A DNA stretch of 64,000 nt from Marine Group I thaumarchaeote SCGC AAA799-D11 (GTDB lineage Archaea > Thermoproteota > Nitrososphaeria > Nitrososphaerales > Nitrosopumilaceae), in NCBI GenBank assembly GCA_000746765.1, contig JOSY01000033.1:62001-126000 (forward strand). The letters run 5' to 3'. This document shows, one piece after another, positions 39,870 to 46,209 of this stretch. A program made the translations under genes and the position numbers. Numbering within the stretch: position 1 is the first letter of the stretch; each line of letters begins with the position of its first letter. The notes below the pieces were generated by a model. The model was not told the origin of the DNA, ran no database searches, and worked only from the letters and a program-made list of their open reading frames with translations.

Positions 39870-40883
39870 TTAGAGATTGTCAGTGATTTGTTTTGTGAAT
39901 TCGGATGTAGTTTTGTCTCCACCAATATCTTTTGTTTTAACTCCAGTTTTTACTAAATCAAATATTGTAGATTCTAACTTTTGACCAACATCAAAACATT
40001 TGGAATCATTGTGTTTTGTTCCAAGCCAATCAAGCATCATTTTGATTGAAAGTAAAAATGATGAAGGGTTTGCAATGTTTTGTCCTGCAATATCAAATGC
40101 AGCACCATGAACGGGTTCAAACAAAGCAAAATTATCACCAATATTTGCAGCTGGAGCCATCCCCAAACCACCTACAACCTGAGAAGATTCATCAGATAAG
40201 ATATCACCAAAAAGATTTGTTGTGACAATGACATCAAATTGTTCAGGTTGTCGAATCAAGTTCATAGCACATGCATCAACATACATTTGTTCAAATGTAA
40301 TGTCGGGATAATCTTTTGAGACTTCAGTACAGGCTTTGGCAAATAATCCATCTGTAACTCTCATCACATTAGACTTGTGCACACATGTTACTTTTCTCAT
40401 AGAATCACGTTGTTTTGCAGATTCAAATGCATATTTTGCAATTCTCTTTGATGCGTTTTCTGAAATTATTCTCAAAGCTACTGCAGAGTCACCCAAACTG
40501 AATTCTTTTCCAGTGTAAAGATCCTCAGTATTTTCTCGAACAATCACCATATCAATATCATCACGTAATGCAGGCATATGAGGATATGATTTTGCAGGCC
40601 TGATATTGGCATAAAGGTCAAGCATTCTTCTTAAAACCACAATCACATCAGCAGCACTTTCACCAACAGGTGCCTTCATACAAGCATCAGACTGTTTTAT
40701 TGCATCAACTGTCTCATCAGGAAGTGCTTTTCCTGTTTGCTCTAATGCCTTATCTCCAGCAGATAATTTTGTAATGTCAAATTTCAAATCAAGTTTGTCA
40801 TGAATAGTAGTCAATACAGAAATTGCAGATTCTGATAATTCAGGTCCAATTCCATCACCAGTAATTAATGAGATTTTATACAT
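39870..40883 (-). CDS. leuB: 3-isopropylmalate dehydrogenase
   Basis: A 337-residue beta-decarboxylating dehydrogenase. Motifs: LITGDGIGPEL at the N-terminus, ANIRPAKSYP, VRENTEDLYTGKE, CVHKSNVMR with the catalytic lysine, and TTNLFGDILSDESS. The same fold serves isocitrate dehydrogenase and homoisocitrate dehydrogenase; the leuA-ilvN-ilvB context favours leucine biosynthesis. It is last in the operon, 26 bases after leuA. Confidence 0.85.
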   Translation of the reverse strand: MYKISLITGDGIGPELSESAISVLTTIHDKLDLKFDITKLSAGDKALEQTGKALPDETVDAIKQSDACMKAPVGESAADVIVVLRRMLDLYANIRPAKSYPHMPALRDDIDMVIVRENTEDLYTGKEFSLGDSAVALRIISENASKRIAKYAFESAKQRDSMRKVTCVHKSNVMRVTDGLFAKACTEVSKDYPDITFEQMYVDACAMNLIRQPEQFDVIVTTNLFGDILSDESSQVVGGLGMAPAANIGDNFALFEPVHGAAFDIAGQNIANPSSFLLSIKMMLDWLGTKHNDSKCFDVGQKLESTIFDLVKTGVKTKDIGGDKTTSEFTKQITDNL

Positions 40884-40909: not shown

Positions 40910-42424
40910 TTAACTTATCTGTTTTTCTTGAAGTAGTTTTTTGAGCATAATTCTGTTAACTGCATCAATCACTGCTTTGACTGAAGTAGTAACAATATCT
41001 TCACCTACAGATTTTGCTGAAACTTTGTTTCCTAATGCATCCTCAACCTTTACTGTAACCTCACATAAAGCACCAGAACCTCCTGAAATAGATGCTAATC
41101 CATAATCTTTGATTCTAATTTCAGAAAGTTTTCCAGTAACTTTTTGAATTGCATTAAGTGCAGCGTCAACTGGACCGACACCATAGTCAGTTCCAACATG
41201 ATCTTCTCCATCTACATTTAATTTTACAAATGCATAAGGCATAGTTCCAATTCCAGTAGATACTGAAAATCCAGTTAATTGTACAATTCGTTTAAGATCT
41301 TTATCACCCATTACTTCACTAGCAATAGATAACAATTCTACATCAGTGAGTTGTTTTCCTTGGTCACCAATTACTTTGACTTTGTCTAAGATTTGTTTTG
41401 ATTGTTCTTCATTTGGTTTTACGCCATATTCAGCCAACATGGCATTCATTCCATGAACACCGGCATGTTTTCCAACTTGAAGCCATCTTCTTCTACCAAC
41501 AAGTTCAGGACTAATTGGCTCATAGGTAAGAGGATTATTCAATACACCATGAGTGTGAATGCCTGATTCATGACCAAAGGCATTTGCTCCAACAATTGCC
41601 TTGTTAGGCTGAACAATTATGCCCACAGTCTTTGAGATATACCTAGAGGTATCATAGATTAACTCAGATTTGATGTTAGTCTCATACTTTTGTTCATATG
41701 GCAAACATTTGAGGGCCATAGAAAGTTCTTCTAAAGAAGCATTACCTGCTCTTTCACCAATTCCATTAATTGTAACATGAGCACATGCAGCACCTGCATG
41801 AATTCCAGCTAAAGAGTTTGCAACTGCTAATCCAAAATCATTGTGACAGTGAACACTAACAGGAAGTTTTGTAGCTTCAATCGTATCTTTTGTAATTTGT
41901 GCCATGTATTCAGGAGTAGAGTAACCAACAGTGTCAGGAATGTTTACTCTATCAGCACCTGTTTTTGCAACTTCACCAAATACTTTTTTCAAGAATTCTC
42001 TATCAGTTCTTGATGCATCTTCAGCAGAAAATTCTACTTGGAGACCACGAGATTTTCCATATTCAACTGCCTCAATTGCTTTTTCAAGTGCTTGTTCTCT
42101 TGTCATCTGAAGTTTGTGTTCCAAGTGAATATCAGAAGTTGCAATGAATGTATGAACATAGTTTAATCCAGCATCAACTGCAGCATCAATGTCTTTTTTG
42201 ATTGTTCTTGTTAATCCTGCAATCTCACAAGATAACCCTTCAGAAGTTATCATTTTTACTGCTTTTAATTCACCATCAGAAATTACTGGGAATCCTGCCT
42301 CTATTGCATCTACTCCTAATTCGTCAAGTTTTTTTGCAATAGACAATTTTTGTTCTGGAGATAAAGATACGCCGATTGTTTGTTCTCCATCTCTTAATGT
42401 TGTATCAAATATTCTAACTTTCAT
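40910..42424 (-). CDS. leuA: 2-isopropylmalate synthase
   Basis: A 504-residue enzyme of the HMGL/DRE-TIM family. The DTTLRDGEQTIGVSL motif opens the barrel, and SVHCHNDFGLAVANSLAGI carries the metal histidines. The C-terminal regulatory LeuA domain (about 365-504) is intact, so leucine feedback is possible. Citramalate synthase has the same architecture and cannot be excluded. Its start overlaps the ilvN stop by four bases. Confidence 0.88.
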   Translation of the reverse strand: MKVRIFDTTLRDGEQTIGVSLSPEQKLSIAKKLDELGVDAIEAGFPVISDGELKAVKMITSEGLSCEIAGLTRTIKKDIDAAVDAGLNYVHTFIATSDIHLEHKLQMTREQALEKAIEAVEYGKSRGLQVEFSAEDASRTDREFLKKVFGEVAKTGADRVNIPDTVGYSTPEYMAQITKDTIEATKLPVSVHCHNDFGLAVANSLAGIHAGAACAHVTINGIGERAGNASLEELSMALKCLPYEQKYETNIKSELIYDTSRYISKTVGIIVQPNKAIVGANAFGHESGIHTHGVLNNPLTYEPISPELVGRRRWLQVGKHAGVHGMNAMLAEYGVKPNEEQSKQILDKVKVIGDQGKQLTDVELLSIASEVMGDKDLKRIVQLTGFSVSTGIGTMPYAFVKLNVDGEDHVGTDYGVGPVDAALNAIQKVTGKLSEIRIKDYGLASISGGSGALCEVTVKVEDALGNKVSAKSVGEDIVTTSVKAVIDAVNRIMLKKLLQEKQIS

Positions 42425-42915
42425 TCAGCCCCACTCCTTTGTAATGCAGCAACTCCGGTTCTTGCAACATCAATAATTCCAAATGGTTTTGCTAATTCTT
42501 CAAATGCTTTGATTTGATCAGGGGTTGCAGTTAATTCCACCATGATTGACTCTTTTTTGACATCATGTACTTTACCGCCATATGCATTAGCCAATTTGTT
42601 TACTTCCATACTATCATTAGCATTACTTAGTTTAATCTTAAAAATACTAAGTTCTCTATAGACGGTTTTGTGCTCATCTAAGCGTTCTACTTTTACAGTA
42701 TCAATCATTTTATCGAGTTGTTTTACAATCTGGGCTATCTGCTTTTCATCACCAAAAGTAGTGATTGTCATTTTAGAGTATTCAGGGTTTTCAGTCACAC
42801 CTACAGAGATACTATCAATATTGAAATCTCTTGCACGAAATAGGTGCGTAACCTTGAATAAAATTCCAGGTTTGTTTTCAACTAAAAGAGAAAGAATTGC
42901 CCACATGTTTATCAC
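42421..42915 (-). CDS. ilvN: Acetolactate synthase, small regulatory subunit
   Basis: A 164-residue IlvN/IlvH with an N-terminal ACT domain (ILSLLVENKPGILFKVTHLF, DIDSISVG) and the C-terminal domain (VDVARTGVAALQRSG at the end). It controls and stabilises the catalytic subunit. It overlaps ilvB by one base and leuA by four, implying translational coupling. Confidence 0.93.
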   Translation of the reverse strand: MINMWAILSLLVENKPGILFKVTHLFRARDFNIDSISVGVTENPEYSKMTITTFGDEKQIAQIVKQLDKMIDTVKVERLDEHKTVYRELSIFKIKLSNANDSMEVNKLANAYGGKVHDVKKESIMVELTATPDQIKAFEELAKPFGIIDVARTGVAALQRSGAE

Positions 42916-44627
42916 TATGATGGTAAAATCATGTCCTTAAGCGAAGTTCCAGGAGCTACAAATGGTAATACATCTTCTTCAGGATCAATTGGAATGTCAA
43001 TGACTGTAGCAACATCACTGCTTAATGCATCTCTGATTGCTTTGTCAAGTTCATCCATTGATTGTGCTCTTATTCCTTGAGCTCCATAAGATTGTGCTAG
43101 TTTAACATAATCAGGACAATGTCCTTGGTCTACACCAATCATTCTTCTATCATAGAATGTTCTTTGCCATTGGGCTACCATTCCCAATGTAAAGTTGTTT
43201 AATACAAATACAATTACTGGAATGTCTTCTAACACAGCAGTTGCAAGAGAGTTTTCAGTCATTGCAAAGCTACCATCACCAGCAATGTCTACAACAGGAA
43301 CATCGGGTTTTGCAACTTTAGCACCAATTGCAGCTGGGAATCCCCAACCCATAGTACCAAGTCCTGTAGAACTAAAGAAGGTTCCAGGTTGTATTACATC
43401 ATAGAATAATGATGCCCACATTTGATGTTGTCCTACTTCAGTAGTGATGATTGATTCTTTTGGTAAAATTTCTCTTAGTTTGCGTAAAATTTTAGCTGCT
43501 CCCATTTCACCAGGATGAAGTTTCAAATTTTCTTGCCAGTAGGATTTAGTTTCTTTAACATGTTTTACCCATGGGGTCTCTTCAGTCTTTTTGATTGCTT
43601 TTTGCAAGAGTAACTTTACCATAATTCTGAGATTCATCTGTACATCACCAACCACAGCAAGCTGTGCTGTTTGATTTTTACCAATCTCTGCAGGATCAAC
43701 ATCCATATGAATAATCTTGAGATTTCTCTCAAATTCTTCAAAAGTTCCAACAGACCTGTCAGAGAATCTAGTTCCTATTGCTAAAACACAATCTGCCTCA
43801 GACATGATTTTGTTAGCTTCTGCATGACCATGCATTCCAATAGGACCTAAAGACAAAGGATGATTTTCAGGAAATGCACCTTTACCTTTGAAGGTGGTTA
43901 CTACAGGAAGCATTAATGCTTCAGCAATAGCTTGTAATTCTGCAAATGCTGATGAAATAATTGTACCGCCACCAGCTAAGATTACAGGTTTTTGAGAATG
44001 AAGTAACATATCAATTGCTTTTTCAACTGCAACAATATCAGGATCAGCCCAAGGATGATAACCCTGAATTTTAAATTCATCAGGAAAAACCATTTCAGCC
44101 TCATTTTGTTGTACATCTTTTGGAATGTCAATTAATACAGGTCCAGGTCTTCCAGTTTCTGCAATGAAGAATCCTTTCTTTACAACCTCGGGGATTTCTG
44201 AAGCATGTCTTGGTTGAAATGCATATTTTACAACAGGATTAGCCATTCCAATAATATCACTTTCTTGAAATGCATCTTTTCCAATCATAGGAGTAGGGAC
44301 TTGTCCAGTTACTGCAACCATTGGTGCAGAGTCAGCTTGTGCAGTTGCAATTCCAGTCAAAATATTGGTGGCTCCAGGTCCAGAAGTAGCAAAACAAACT
44401 CCAGGTTTTCGACTTACTCTTCCAAAACCATCTGCCATATGGGCTGCAGATTGTTCATGTCTTGCCAAGATATGTCTAATATTACATCTAGCAAACTCAT
44501 CATACATTGGAAGATTTGCACCTCCCGGTAAACCAAATACTTCCTTGACGCCTTCTTTTTCCATTGCCGTCATCAAGGCCTTTGCACCAATCATATTTTC
44601 CATATTATTCATCAAATTTCTCTCCAT
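42915..44627 (-). CDS. ilvB: Acetolactate synthase, large catalytic subunit
   Basis: A 570-residue ThDP enzyme. The N-terminal domain has FGLPGGANLPMYDEF and the catalytic Glu in ARHEQSAAHMADG. The ThDP motif is DIAGDGSFAMTENSLATA with the following NN (VLNNFTLGMV). It makes acetolactate from pyruvate, or acetohydroxybutyrate, at the head of the valine, leucine and isoleucine pathways. In-frame ATGs at residues 6 and 9 are alternative starts. The 5' region carries nested inverted repeats (44650-44716). Confidence 0.95.
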   Translation of the reverse strand: MERNLMNNMENMIGAKALMTAMEKEGVKEVFGLPGGANLPMYDEFARCNIRHILARHEQSAAHMADGFGRVSRKPGVCFATSGPGATNILTGIATAQADSAPMVAVTGQVPTPMIGKDAFQESDIIGMANPVVKYAFQPRHASEIPEVVKKGFFIAETGRPGPVLIDIPKDVQQNEAEMVFPDEFKIQGYHPWADPDIVAVEKAIDMLLHSQKPVILAGGGTIISSAFAELQAIAEALMLPVVTTFKGKGAFPENHPLSLGPIGMHGHAEANKIMSEADCVLAIGTRFSDRSVGTFEEFERNLKIIHMDVDPAEIGKNQTAQLAVVGDVQMNLRIMVKLLLQKAIKKTEETPWVKHVKETKSYWQENLKLHPGEMGAAKILRKLREILPKESIITTEVGQHQMWASLFYDVIQPGTFFSSTGLGTMGWGFPAAIGAKVAKPDVPVVDIAGDGSFAMTENSLATAVLEDIPVIVFVLNNFTLGMVAQWQRTFYDRRMIGVDQGHCPDYVKLAQSYGAQGIRAQSMDELDKAIRDALSSDVATVIDIPIDPEEDVLPFVAPGTSLKDMILPS

Positions 44628-44649
44628 AATTTTAATGTGTTAAAATTTT

Positions 44650-44716
44650 GAGCACACTTTACAGTGTTAGGACAACTGGCAATTCTTTGCCAAATGTTAT
44701 AGTTAATCTTGTGCTC
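44650..44716 (-). promoter_or_regulatory. Nested inverted repeats upstream of ilvB
   Basis: An outer pair GAGCACA (44650-44656) and TGTGCTC (44710-44716) encloses a perfect hairpin TGGCAA-TTCT-TTGCCA (44677-44692) and overlaps a small one, ACACT/AGTGT (44654-44667). A further nine-base pair, TTAGGACAA (44667-44675) with TTGTCCTAA (44780-44788), reaches towards the divergent gene. A TATA-like element on the minus strand near 44741-44753 would place all but the last in the ilvB leader. It might be a leader RNA control element or a set of operators. Confidence 0.5.
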
Positions 44717-44812
44717 ATTGAAATCAAAAAAACAATCAATCTATAATTAATAAAGATTATCTAAAGAATAATCAGGATTTTGTCCTAATTCGTACAGAAG
44801 ACTTAAACTGAT

Positions 44813-44832
44813 TATTTTCATATTCGAAAATA
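44813..44832. promoter_or_regulatory. Palindrome at the start of the NTF2-like gene
   Basis: TATTTTC (44813-44819) and GAAAATA (44826-44832) are perfect seven-base arms with a six-base spacer, ending five bases before the TTG start at 44838. It is placed to block or recruit transcription initiation. Confidence 0.4.
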
Positions 44833-44837
44833 CGGTT

Positions 44838-45242
44838 TTGTCAGATAGTGAAGAGATCATCAAAGTAATTGAAGTATTATTTCAGGCAGGAATCACAAAA
44901 GATACATCAGTTCTAAAAGACATCCATCTAAACGACCCAAAATTTTCTAGTTTTAGTGATTTACCACCATATGATCTGAAAGATTATCAAAACACCATAG
45001 AGTTAGAAGAGCTCAAGTTTGTCAGCATTTCAGATTATAGTTATGAAATAAAGAATCCAAAAATCAGTATTTTTGGAGATTCAGCAGTTGTTGCAATGGA
45101 ACTAAATCAAAAAGGAATGCTGGTAGACACAAAAGCATACACCGGAGAACATATGGAGATTCAAGGAAGAGCAACTTTTGTTTTAGTAAAGCAACCAACA
45201 TGGAAAATTGCACATATTCATCTATCAAAGATTAATGGATGA
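44838..45242 (+). CDS. NTF2-like (SnoaL-type) protein (134 aa)
   Basis: The order of one helical N-terminal segment and a C-terminal sheet (KISIFGDSAVVAMELNQKG, then GRATFVLVKQPTWKIAHIHL) fits the NTF2-like fold used by DUF4440 and SnoaL proteins. No catalytic residues can be assigned. The start is TTG. It is divergent from ilvB and stops one base before the repeat-tailed aldolase gene. Confidence 0.7.
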   Translation: MSDSEEIIKVIEVLFQAGITKDTSVLKDIHLNDPKFSSFSDLPPYDLKDYQNTIELEELKFVSISDYSYEIKNPKISIFGDSAVVAMELNQKGMLVDTKAYTGEHMEIQGRATFVLVKQPTWKIAHIHLSKING

Positions 45243-45243
45243 A

Positions 45244-46209
45244 TTAGTTCTTTTTTGGTTGGGAGTTATTTTGTGGTTTGTTTGATTTGTTTTGATTAGG
45301 TTTTTTGCCTTTTGATTTGTTTTGATTAGGTTTTTTGCCTTTTGATTTGTTTTGATTAGGTTTTTTGCCTTTTGATTTGTTTTGATTAGGTTTTTGGCCT
45401 TTTGATTTTTGTTTTTTACCTGATTCTTCGTTTGATAGTTTTTTGTATAATTTGAAAGCTTGATCAACATTTGCATTTTGGTGAATGATTGCTCTTGTTG
45501 CTCTAATCATGGCAACAGGATGTTCAGATTGCCAGATGTTTCTTCCCATATCAACACCAACAGCACCTGCTTTTACAGCATTGTAAGTTAGTTGTAATGC
45601 ATCGCGTTCTGGGATTTTCTTTCCCCCTGCAACAATAATGGGAACAGGGCAAGATTCAACAACTTTTTCAAAGTTTTCACAATAGTATGTTTTTACAATA
45701 TGTGCGCCTTGTTCAGCTGCCATTCTACATGCTAATGAAAGATATCTTGCATCCTTTCCCAATTCTTTTCCTACTGCAGTTACGGCCAATACTGGAATTC
45801 CGTATTGTTCTGCTTCACTGACTAATTTTCCTAGATTTACAACTGTTTGATATTCATATTTTGAGCCTACAAAGATAGACATTGCAAGTGCACTAGCGTT
45901 TAGTCTAATTGCATCTTGAATTGATACTGTAATATCTTCTTGAGACAAGTCTTCTCCAATAATGCTAGAGCCACCAGATACACGAAGTACCATAGGAGTG
46001 TCAGTTTCTGCAGGAACAGATGTTCTCTGAACACCTCTAGTCAACATCAAAGAATCACAATGTTTCAACAAAGGTGCAATTGCCTTTTTTGGATTTTCTA
46101 GCTTTTCAGTTGGGCCAAGAAAATATCCATGATCAACTGCTAACATTAGTGCACGATTGTTATGTGGTTTAATTATACTAGATAAGCGGTTTTTTAATCC
46201 CCAATCCAT
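45244..46209 (-). CDS. LsrF/DhnA-type class I aldolase with lysine-rich repeat tail
   Basis: Residues 1-262 resemble LsrF and archaeal class I aldolases: DWGLKNRLSSI, LAVDHGYFLGPTEKL, LTRGVQRTSVP, the Schiff-base lysine in HIVKTYYCENF, VAGGKKIPERDALQ and GVDMGRNIWQSEHPVAM. LsrF is a thiolase of autoinducer-2 breakdown; relatives make aromatic-pathway precursors, so the reaction here is open. The last 60 or so residues are a Lys/Asn/Gln tail with four copies of a ten-residue unit like KSKGKKPNQN, not usual for the family. The zinc dehydrogenase gene lies 37 bases upstream on the same strand. Confidence 0.82.
   Translation of the reverse strand: MDWGLKNRLSSIIKPHNNRALMLAVDHGYFLGPTEKLENPKKAIAPLLKHCDSLMLTRGVQRTSVPAETDTPMVLRVSGGSSIIGEDLSQEDITVSIQDAIRLNASALAMSIFVGSKYEYQTVVNLGKLVSEAEQYGIPVLAVTAVGKELGKDARYLSLACRMAAEQGAHIVKTYYCENFEKVVESCPVPIIVAGGKKIPERDALQLTYNAVKAGAVGVDMGRNIWQSEHPVAMIRATRAIIHQNANVDQAFKLYKKLSNEESGKKQKSKGQKPNQNKSKGKKPNQNKSKGKKPNQNKSKGKKPNQNKSNKPQNNSQPKKN
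45281..45410. repeat. 30-base tandem repeat encoding the aldolase tail
   Basis: Three exact 30-base units span 45301-45390, with partial or diverged copies on both sides. The unit is ten codons, so gain or loss of copies keeps the frame. It codes for the Lys-rich tail of the LsrF-like protein. Exact identity at the DNA level implies recent slippage. Confidence 0.9.

Follow-up and report, generated by a model that had tools for sequence, protein, structure and literature searches.

A candidate ribosome-sensing leader upstream of the branched-chain amino acid operon in Nitrosopumilaceae and related archaea

The DNA upstream of ilvB in the marine thaumarchaeote SCGC AAA799-D11 holds four interleaved inverted repeats, which raises the question of whether they belong to an RNA leader that controls branched-chain amino acid synthesis or have some other role. 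A preliminary description had proposed leader control by competing RNA folds. That proposal appears right in kind and incomplete in content: its centre is a conserved leader ORF, which the description did not contain, and the repeats are secondary to it. Taken together, our data make it quite probable that the region is a ribosome-sensing leader of ilvB–ilvN–leuA–leuB, which would attenuate the operon according to the supply of branched-chain aminoacyl-tRNA.

In the window (the whole 64,000-nt stretch of contig JOSY01000033.1 that was analysed), the genes downstream of this region follow one another on the minus strand in the order ilvB (acetolactate synthase large subunit, 42915–44612), ilvN (acetolactate synthase small subunit, 42421–42915), a leuA-type 2-isopropylmalate synthase (40910–42424), and a leuB-type isopropylmalate dehydrogenase (39870–40883). 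The divergent neighbour at 44838 on the plus strand encodes a SnoaL-like protein. Further along, at 45281–45408, an aldolase-like gene ends in a tandem 30-bp repeat (4.3 copies, 98% match) that codes for a repetitive Lys/Asn/Gln-rich tail. The longest ORF would start ilvB at ATG 44627 (window 44613–44627, minus strand), and this start is probably wrong, as relatives (L008, L015, L020, and L024–L026) have in-frame stops just past the equivalent position and before the next ATG; the likely start is ATG 44612 or 44603. A Shine–Dalgarno (SD)-like GGAG lies at 44622–44625 on the minus strand, the 3′ end of the 16S rRNA being GGATCACCTCC.

The leader ORF and its codons

On the minus strand of the window, a predicted TATA box (44747–44754) is followed by TTTGATTTCAATG and then by a 19-codon ORF (44659–44718), which encodes MSTRLTITFGKELPVVLTL and ends in the codons CCA GTT GTC CTA ACA CTG TAA. 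This leader ORF (uORF) occurs family-wide and in other families of the order; relatives carry the peptides MNAKLTTTFSKDLPIVILL, MSTELTKTVGKNLPVIVLL, and MDVKLTKKFGNDLPLVILL, and other genera MSTTITGKLGVLLLVDLVL or MTIYSSTAPTVLLLVELVL, all written here up to the stop codon. The family sample consisted of ilvB upstream regions from 131 loci. With one region containing N left out, 98 of 130 regions hold an ATG ORF with at least four Ile/Val/Leu among its last seven residues and a stop 30–85 nt before ilvB, compared with 5.2 in dinucleotide shuffles, and such an ORF precedes 1 of 57 other window ORFs longer than 120 aa that served as a control. Another filter, demanding an ORF of 12–22 codons with at least three Ile/Val/Leu within the last six residues, retained 104 of the 131 regions, five of them with a TTG start (L120, L141, L168, L204, and L205). 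Among the 27 regions that failed it, L012 and L200 carry the ORF by eye and most others do not; in L144 the ORF is broken. The leader is also found in two Nitrosotalea loci (L044 and L045), a Nitrosotenuis record (L039), and two unclassified loci (L041 and L043), and is absent from L042.

Counting back from the stop, Ile, Val, or Leu occupies positions 1–7 in 94, 83, 86, 57, 90, 59, and 75% of the leaders, compared with a background of 23% in eight window genes; these per-position figures are partly selected, as the filter itself demanded Ile/Val/Leu. The base composition within the codons depends less on the filter. At codons −1, −3, and −5, the second base is nearly fixed (entropy 0.28, 0.51, and 0.48) and the third is variable (1.51, 1.53, and 1.26), a combination that is the mark expected of a conserved residue class; at codons −2, −4, −6, and −7, the second base is less fixed (0.81, 1.36, 1.30, and 0.99). 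The Leu codons found there are also ones that the window genes seldom use, with CTG making up 31% in the leader end codons compared with 3% in the eight window genes, and CTA 30% compared with 11%; the 67 Nitrosopumilus-like leaders give 28% and 32%, respectively. This choice may also reflect pairing, as the last codons take part in the hairpin P2 described below. The pooled pN/pS of the leader ORF is 0.84, which falls between those of the other two frames (0.64 and 1.03), so that the peptide body is without clear protein-level constraint and the ratio is uninformative as proof of coding.

These features bear on the possibility that the ORF product is a small protein with a function apart from ilvB control. 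Such a protein would fit the wide occurrence of the ORF and its own promoter-like box, and is nevertheless highly improbable, as the length varies across the family from 13 to 20 codons, conservation is for the Ile/Val/Leu class close to the stop, and the ORF precedes ilvB in many families.

RNA helices around the leader ORF

All four inverted repeats of the preliminary description are present and correctly placed. As written in the window, repeat 1 joins TGAGCACA at 44649–44656 with TGTGCTCA at 44710–44717 (GAGCACA/TGTGCTC core) and links both ends of the conserved leader ORF; repeat 2 joins TGGCAA (44677–44682) with TTGCCA (44687–44692); repeat 3, ACACT/AGTGT, lies inside 44654–44667; and repeat 4 joins TTAGGACAA (44667–44675) with TTGTCCTAA (44780–44788). 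Between 44628 and 44837, there are 13 perfect 7-nt inverted repeats with arms 3–120 nt apart, compared with 3.9 after dinucleotide shuffling (1 of 300 shuffles reaches 13), and five with at least three G/C, compared with 0.16 (0 of 500). The counts for 6-, 8-, and 9-nt repeats are less extreme, with 9, 6, and 20 of 300 shuffles, respectively, having as many.

In the predicted leader RNA, read from the minus strand, repeat 1 would form a helix (P1) whose 5′ arm (TGAGCACA, 44710–44717) overlaps the leader start codon and whose 3′ arm (TGTGCTCA, 44649–44656) begins 2 nt past the leader stop codon. Repeat 3 would form the hairpin P2, ACACT-GTAA-AGTGT, which spans the leader stop (44654–44667), and repeat 2 a small hairpin within the ORF, TTGGCAA/TTGCCA (44677–44693), which is part of the minimum-energy fold. 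P1 and P2 exclude each other because they share bases (TGTG overlap), and the mutual exclusion of folds that had been proposed for the repeats therefore applies to this pair. The repeat TTAGGACAA/TTGTCCTAA was rejected as an RNA pairing and as a part of the switch; one of its arms lies upstream of the TATA box, which places that arm outside the predicted RNA.

In 98 distinct leaders of the 104, the pairing energy of each species' own segments was compared with that of segments swapped between species, a test that only partly removes sequence relatedness, as is also true of the covariation measures below. Pairing of the ORF start with the 15 nt after the stop (P1) reached −7.0 kcal/mol compared with −4.7 kcal/mol for swapped segments (z −10.3, 0 of 5000 permutations), and pairing of the last four codons with the same 15 nt (P2) gave z −5.8 (0 of 5000), while the control pair, ORF start with last codons, gave z +2.0. 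The swap for TGGCAA/TTGCCA gave z −4.1 (0 of 5000). When 250 pairs of segments were scanned in the 90 of 101 leaders having the proximal promoter box described below, P1 accounted for the four best pairs (z −7.2 to −8.7); the other scanned pairs, pairings with the ilvB start included, lie at the level of noise, as the next z was −3.6 and the opposite tail reached +5.1. The scan covered pairs 3 nt or more apart and hence neither P2 nor the inner hairpin.

Of 61 leaders with 19 residues, 55 were aligned for P1, a choice that favours P1 because the six leaders left out (L125, L147, L150, L172, L211, and L213) belong to groups with the other helix. In this alignment, 84.9% of the cells are paired and six of the eight pairs changed on both sides, with 32 both-side-changed cells compared with 10.9 in shuffles; the covariation is 0.317 compared with 0.229 ± 0.013 (0 of 500 shuffles) and at most 0.198 with the partner slid. 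Two of the five measures, the number of pairs with both-side changes (185 of 500) and the number of pair types (425 of 500), lie within the shuffles. RNAalifold yields P1 alone from this alignment, and seven consecutive P1 pairs are found in 28 of 95 leaders. For TGGCAA/TTGCCA, 74.5% of the cells are paired and the covariation is 0.305 compared with 0.260 ± 0.019 (reached by 4 of 500 shuffles), and does not exceed 0.168 once the partner is slid.

Covariation had been named in the preliminary description as a check on the repeats. The comparison strongly supports GAGCACA/TGTGCTC as an RNA helix and moderately supports the TGGCAA/TTGCCA hairpin; ACACT/AGTGT is moderately supported as a pairing between the end codons and the post-stop bases, and TTAGGACAA/TTGTCCTAA, both arms of which occur in 1 of the 131 upstream regions (the window's own), is best read as chance.

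The same data bear on two other accounts of the repeats. Lrp-type regulators are common in archaea, and the P1 arms in the window form a perfect 8-bp inverted repeat, as might be found if the repeats were operator sites on the DNA, bound by a dimeric regulator of, for instance, the Lrp type. This is very unlikely, because the arms change together between species (TGAGCAC/GTGCTCA, TGGATAC/GTGTCCA, TGAATAC/GTGTTCA, and TGAGTAC/GTACTCA), which a conserved operator would not do, and because the helix is tied to the start and stop of the ORF. Moreover, the aligned helix holds 34 G-U compared with 19 of the mirror A-C, as expected for a one-strand RNA, with looser counts giving a weaker excess (28:21 in 7-nt windows and 21:20 in 8-nt windows). 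A branched-chain amino acid riboswitch, with the ORF as a by-product, would account for the leader position and the alternative helices and is extremely improbable: what is conserved is a class of codons, and a conserved unpaired core was not seen in the alignments. The window leader has no Rfam match at the gathering score (best E 0.17, at chance level), and 20 related loci have none at E ≤ 1, so that membership of an Rfam family was rejected, no covariance model being matched by any of them.

Distribution and promoters of the leader

Outside the family, we examined 19 loci from 14 families of the order, drawn from 24 such genomes of which G045, G052, G055, G058, and G059 were left out with no, partial, or distant match only. 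By a loose filter and by eye, 16 of the 19 loci have a leader ORF that ends in Ile/Val/Leu codons, for example EVLLVILI, TPLVLVVV, SILLLSLLL, and LPLVVLL before the stop, and 15 of the 19 have at least four Ile/Val/Leu in the last seven residues. L222, L223, and L226 were judged to be without a leader and L221 is weak; an ORF in L223 with four Ile/Val/Leu in the last seven and a stop 22 nt before ilvB was not counted, nor was one in L226 with three, whereas L221, also with three, was.

P1 is not significant in the 16 loci outside Nitrosopumilaceae (z −1.3). There, a stem-loop follows the leader stop at a distance of 1 to 6 nt, measured to its first paired base, and the arms of this post-stop hairpin match within species (z −6.8, 0 of 5000). 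For the post-stop fold, 15 of 23 loci have z below −2, and L221 has +0.8. The shared feature is that the 12–15 nt right past the leader stop serve as a helix arm, of P1/P2 in Nitrosopumilaceae and of a local hairpin elsewhere.

Beyond the order, a leader with a hairpin was recognized by eye in 3 of 44 loci (L349, L350, and L351), the set excluding L360 (126 bases); the filter also gave scattered others, e.g. L353 and L387. With filters that differ from the ilvB filter, no consistently placed leader was found at hisG (19 loci), ilvD (19), ilvC (18), or trpE (22), out of 30 loci each, where only scattered matches occur (hisG: L240, L245, L250, L253, L254, and L268; ilvD: L282 and L290; ilvC: L302, L304, L306, and L317; trpE: L400, L401, and L404). 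In other families of the phylum, different short ORFs stand before ilvB, for example MRDGTLQV, MSGGTLQVH, MKRDQALQVH, MIGGYTLQV, and MRCFILYV, each followed by a stop. The ten loci with this different element (L361, L362, L373, L375, L376, L377, L385, L386, L388, and L389) include several with a GAGGG..CCCTC-like hairpin under the ORF, and nine of them (all but L375) have no Rfam match at E ≤ 1; this element is possibly a second kind of ilvB leader.

In 102 of 104 leaders, compared with 42 in shuffles, a loose TATA-like pattern is located 27 to 38 nt upstream of the ORF start, and the strict form CTTTATWA is present in 79 of 104 compared with 0.3. Given a TATA-like box at this distance (TTTATTAA in the window), the predicted start lies a few nt before the leader ORF and the leader mRNA is probably near-leaderless. 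A second, proximal TATA-like box (ATTAAAATT, 44628–44636, minus strand) precedes the likely ilvB ATG at 44603 by ∼32 nt. A box at about this spacing is present in 95 of 104 regions with the uORF and in 24 of 27 without (119 of 131 in total); set against shuffles, the count is 118 of 130 compared with 11.4. As the box stands beside the leader in 95 of the 104, the window's group is likely to have two promoters, of which the proximal one appears suited to a leaderless ilvB mRNA that would bypass the switch. A start site at ilvB had been put forward as the observation that would speak against a leader; the predicted box before ATG 44603 suggests that such a start may coexist with it.

It is also conceivable that there are two promoters and no attenuation, i.e. 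that leaderless ilvB mRNA comes from the proximal box, while the separate short transcript of the distal promoter interferes or regulates otherwise. The frequency of the proximal box with and without the uORF and its excess over shuffles agree with this, and regions that lack the uORF presumably depend on that box. The explanation is unlikely, as six loci (L203, L208, L211, L213, L217, and L220) have no box at the proximal place and yet retain the leader, together with an SD-like site ahead of ilvB, as a box at that spacing past the leader stop was not seen by eye in any of the 16 other-family loci, and as the Ile/Val/Leu codons and the helices would remain unexplained. From this distribution, the switch seems to be the older element; the second promoter would have been gained in the window's group and would now stand by itself in regions without the uORF. 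Fifteen relatives without the leader ORF (L019, L021, L022, L024–L026, L123, L143, L149, L161, L162, L165, L176, L184, and L190) have the proximal TATA-like box within similar sequence (CATTTTAAATTATGG or near) and may serve as a natural experiment on loss of the switch.

Proposed mechanism and known systems

For a ribosome-sensing leader, we propose the following sequence of events. The leader ORF would be translated, and under a shortage of charged Ile-, Val-, or Leu-tRNA, ribosomes would stall on its last codons, covering the stop and the following bases and so keeping the helix open. With a good supply, the ribosome would terminate and leave, the helix would close, and ilvB output would fall. 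Two features that attenuation calls for are found: a short ORF rich in end-product codons precedes the operon, both in the family (98 of 130 regions compared with 5.2 by chance) and in the other families (16 of 19 loci), and the helices could be opened by a ribosome on the control codons, as P1 and the post-stop hairpin both use the bases after the stop. The closed helix may act on transcription, for example through access of FttA/aCPSF1 to the nascent RNA, or on translation, and steric hindrance of initiation is another possible action. According to PMC8116511, FttA/aCPSF1 is a termination factor that binds nascent RNA.

A bacterial-type terminator was not seen: there is no G+C-rich hairpin with a U-run in window 44400–45000 and no five-T run in the 12 nt past the hairpins of 23 loci, and five-T runs past the leader stop are at chance level in the 104 family leaders (15 compared with 13.2). 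Four-T runs at this position are enriched (62 of 104 compared with 33.4), which makes a weak archaeal U-tract possible.

Occlusion of the SD site by the leader fold likewise finds no consistent support. Of 24 loci, 22 have an SD-like match of 4–8 nt; in these, the mean unpaired fraction of this site is 0.35 with the leader free and 0.38 with the ribosome stalled, without a consistent shift, the change being as expected in L230, L351, and L225 and opposite in L235 and L045. Within the family, no pairing with the ilvB start was supported by the swaps of the 250-pair scan, although a minimum-energy helix near that start is found in the window alone. In the 16 other-family loci, pairing of the post-stop segment with the SD region gave z −2.1 (105 of 5000), which is partly the hairpin itself. 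By sequence, the loop of the post-stop hairpin contains a stretch complementary to the downstream SD site in L228 (CACCTC/GAGGTG) and L237 (CTCCT/AGGAG), where a loop–SD contact is possible.

A wider reading, to which we give even chances, is that this is an ancient archaeal ribosome-sensing attenuator, present throughout the order and beyond and the first to be described in archaea, in which a near-leaderless mini-ORF reads branched-chain tRNA charging and a stop-anchored helix, rather than a bacterial-type terminator or an SD mask, sets the output, perhaps via FttA/aCPSF1. A conserved and covarying case in nitrifying archaea would mean that archaeal metabolism is regulated by tRNA charging as sensed by the translating ribosome, and would be a test bed for attenuation without bacterial terminators. 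For ammonia-oxidizing archaea, the leader is a candidate starvation sensor, of a kind known from bacteria, before the genes for leucine, isoleucine, and valine; its analysis also suggests that the longest-ORF start of ilvB is wrong and that the region has two promoters.

Ribosome-mediated attenuation is textbook bacterial control. In the ilv, leu, trp, and his attenuators of E. coli, a leader peptide rich in the end product is combined with exclusive RNA folds that are set by the position of the ribosome. The archaeal leader shares the end-product-rich peptide and the exclusive folds and differs in that its control codons abut the stop, no U-run terminator was seen, its predicted start is near-leaderless, and the polymerase is archaeal. 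In the open literature searched (including PMC11456600, PMC13158618, PMC8116511, PMC7531240, PMC10219788, and PMC10272879), the available text yielded no archaeal leader-peptide attenuator, only bacterial ilvB uORFs and general archaeal uORFs; archaea are named among the domains with functional uORFs in PMC10219788, in whose text 'ilv' does not occur. Close counterparts are given in PMC10272879. The Corynebacterium ilvB-II motif there has, as here, a uORF rich in branched-chain codons before ilvB, with attenuation proposed; that motif is bacterial and the attenuation proposed for it transcriptional, while the leader described here is archaeal, was not seen to have a hairpin-plus-U-run terminator, and has a helix arm directly past the uORF stop. 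The ilvB-OMG and Leptospira ilvB motifs of the same source also have predicted uORFs rich in branched-chain codons before ilvB; they belong to bacterial lineages, and the archaeal leader matches no Rfam model. Finally, compared with translational attenuation of the ermC type, as described in PMC10219788, the proposed signal here is amino acid supply and not a drug, and SD exposure is without consistent support; the principle shared with it is that a ribosome stalled on a leader ORF alters the local RNA structure.
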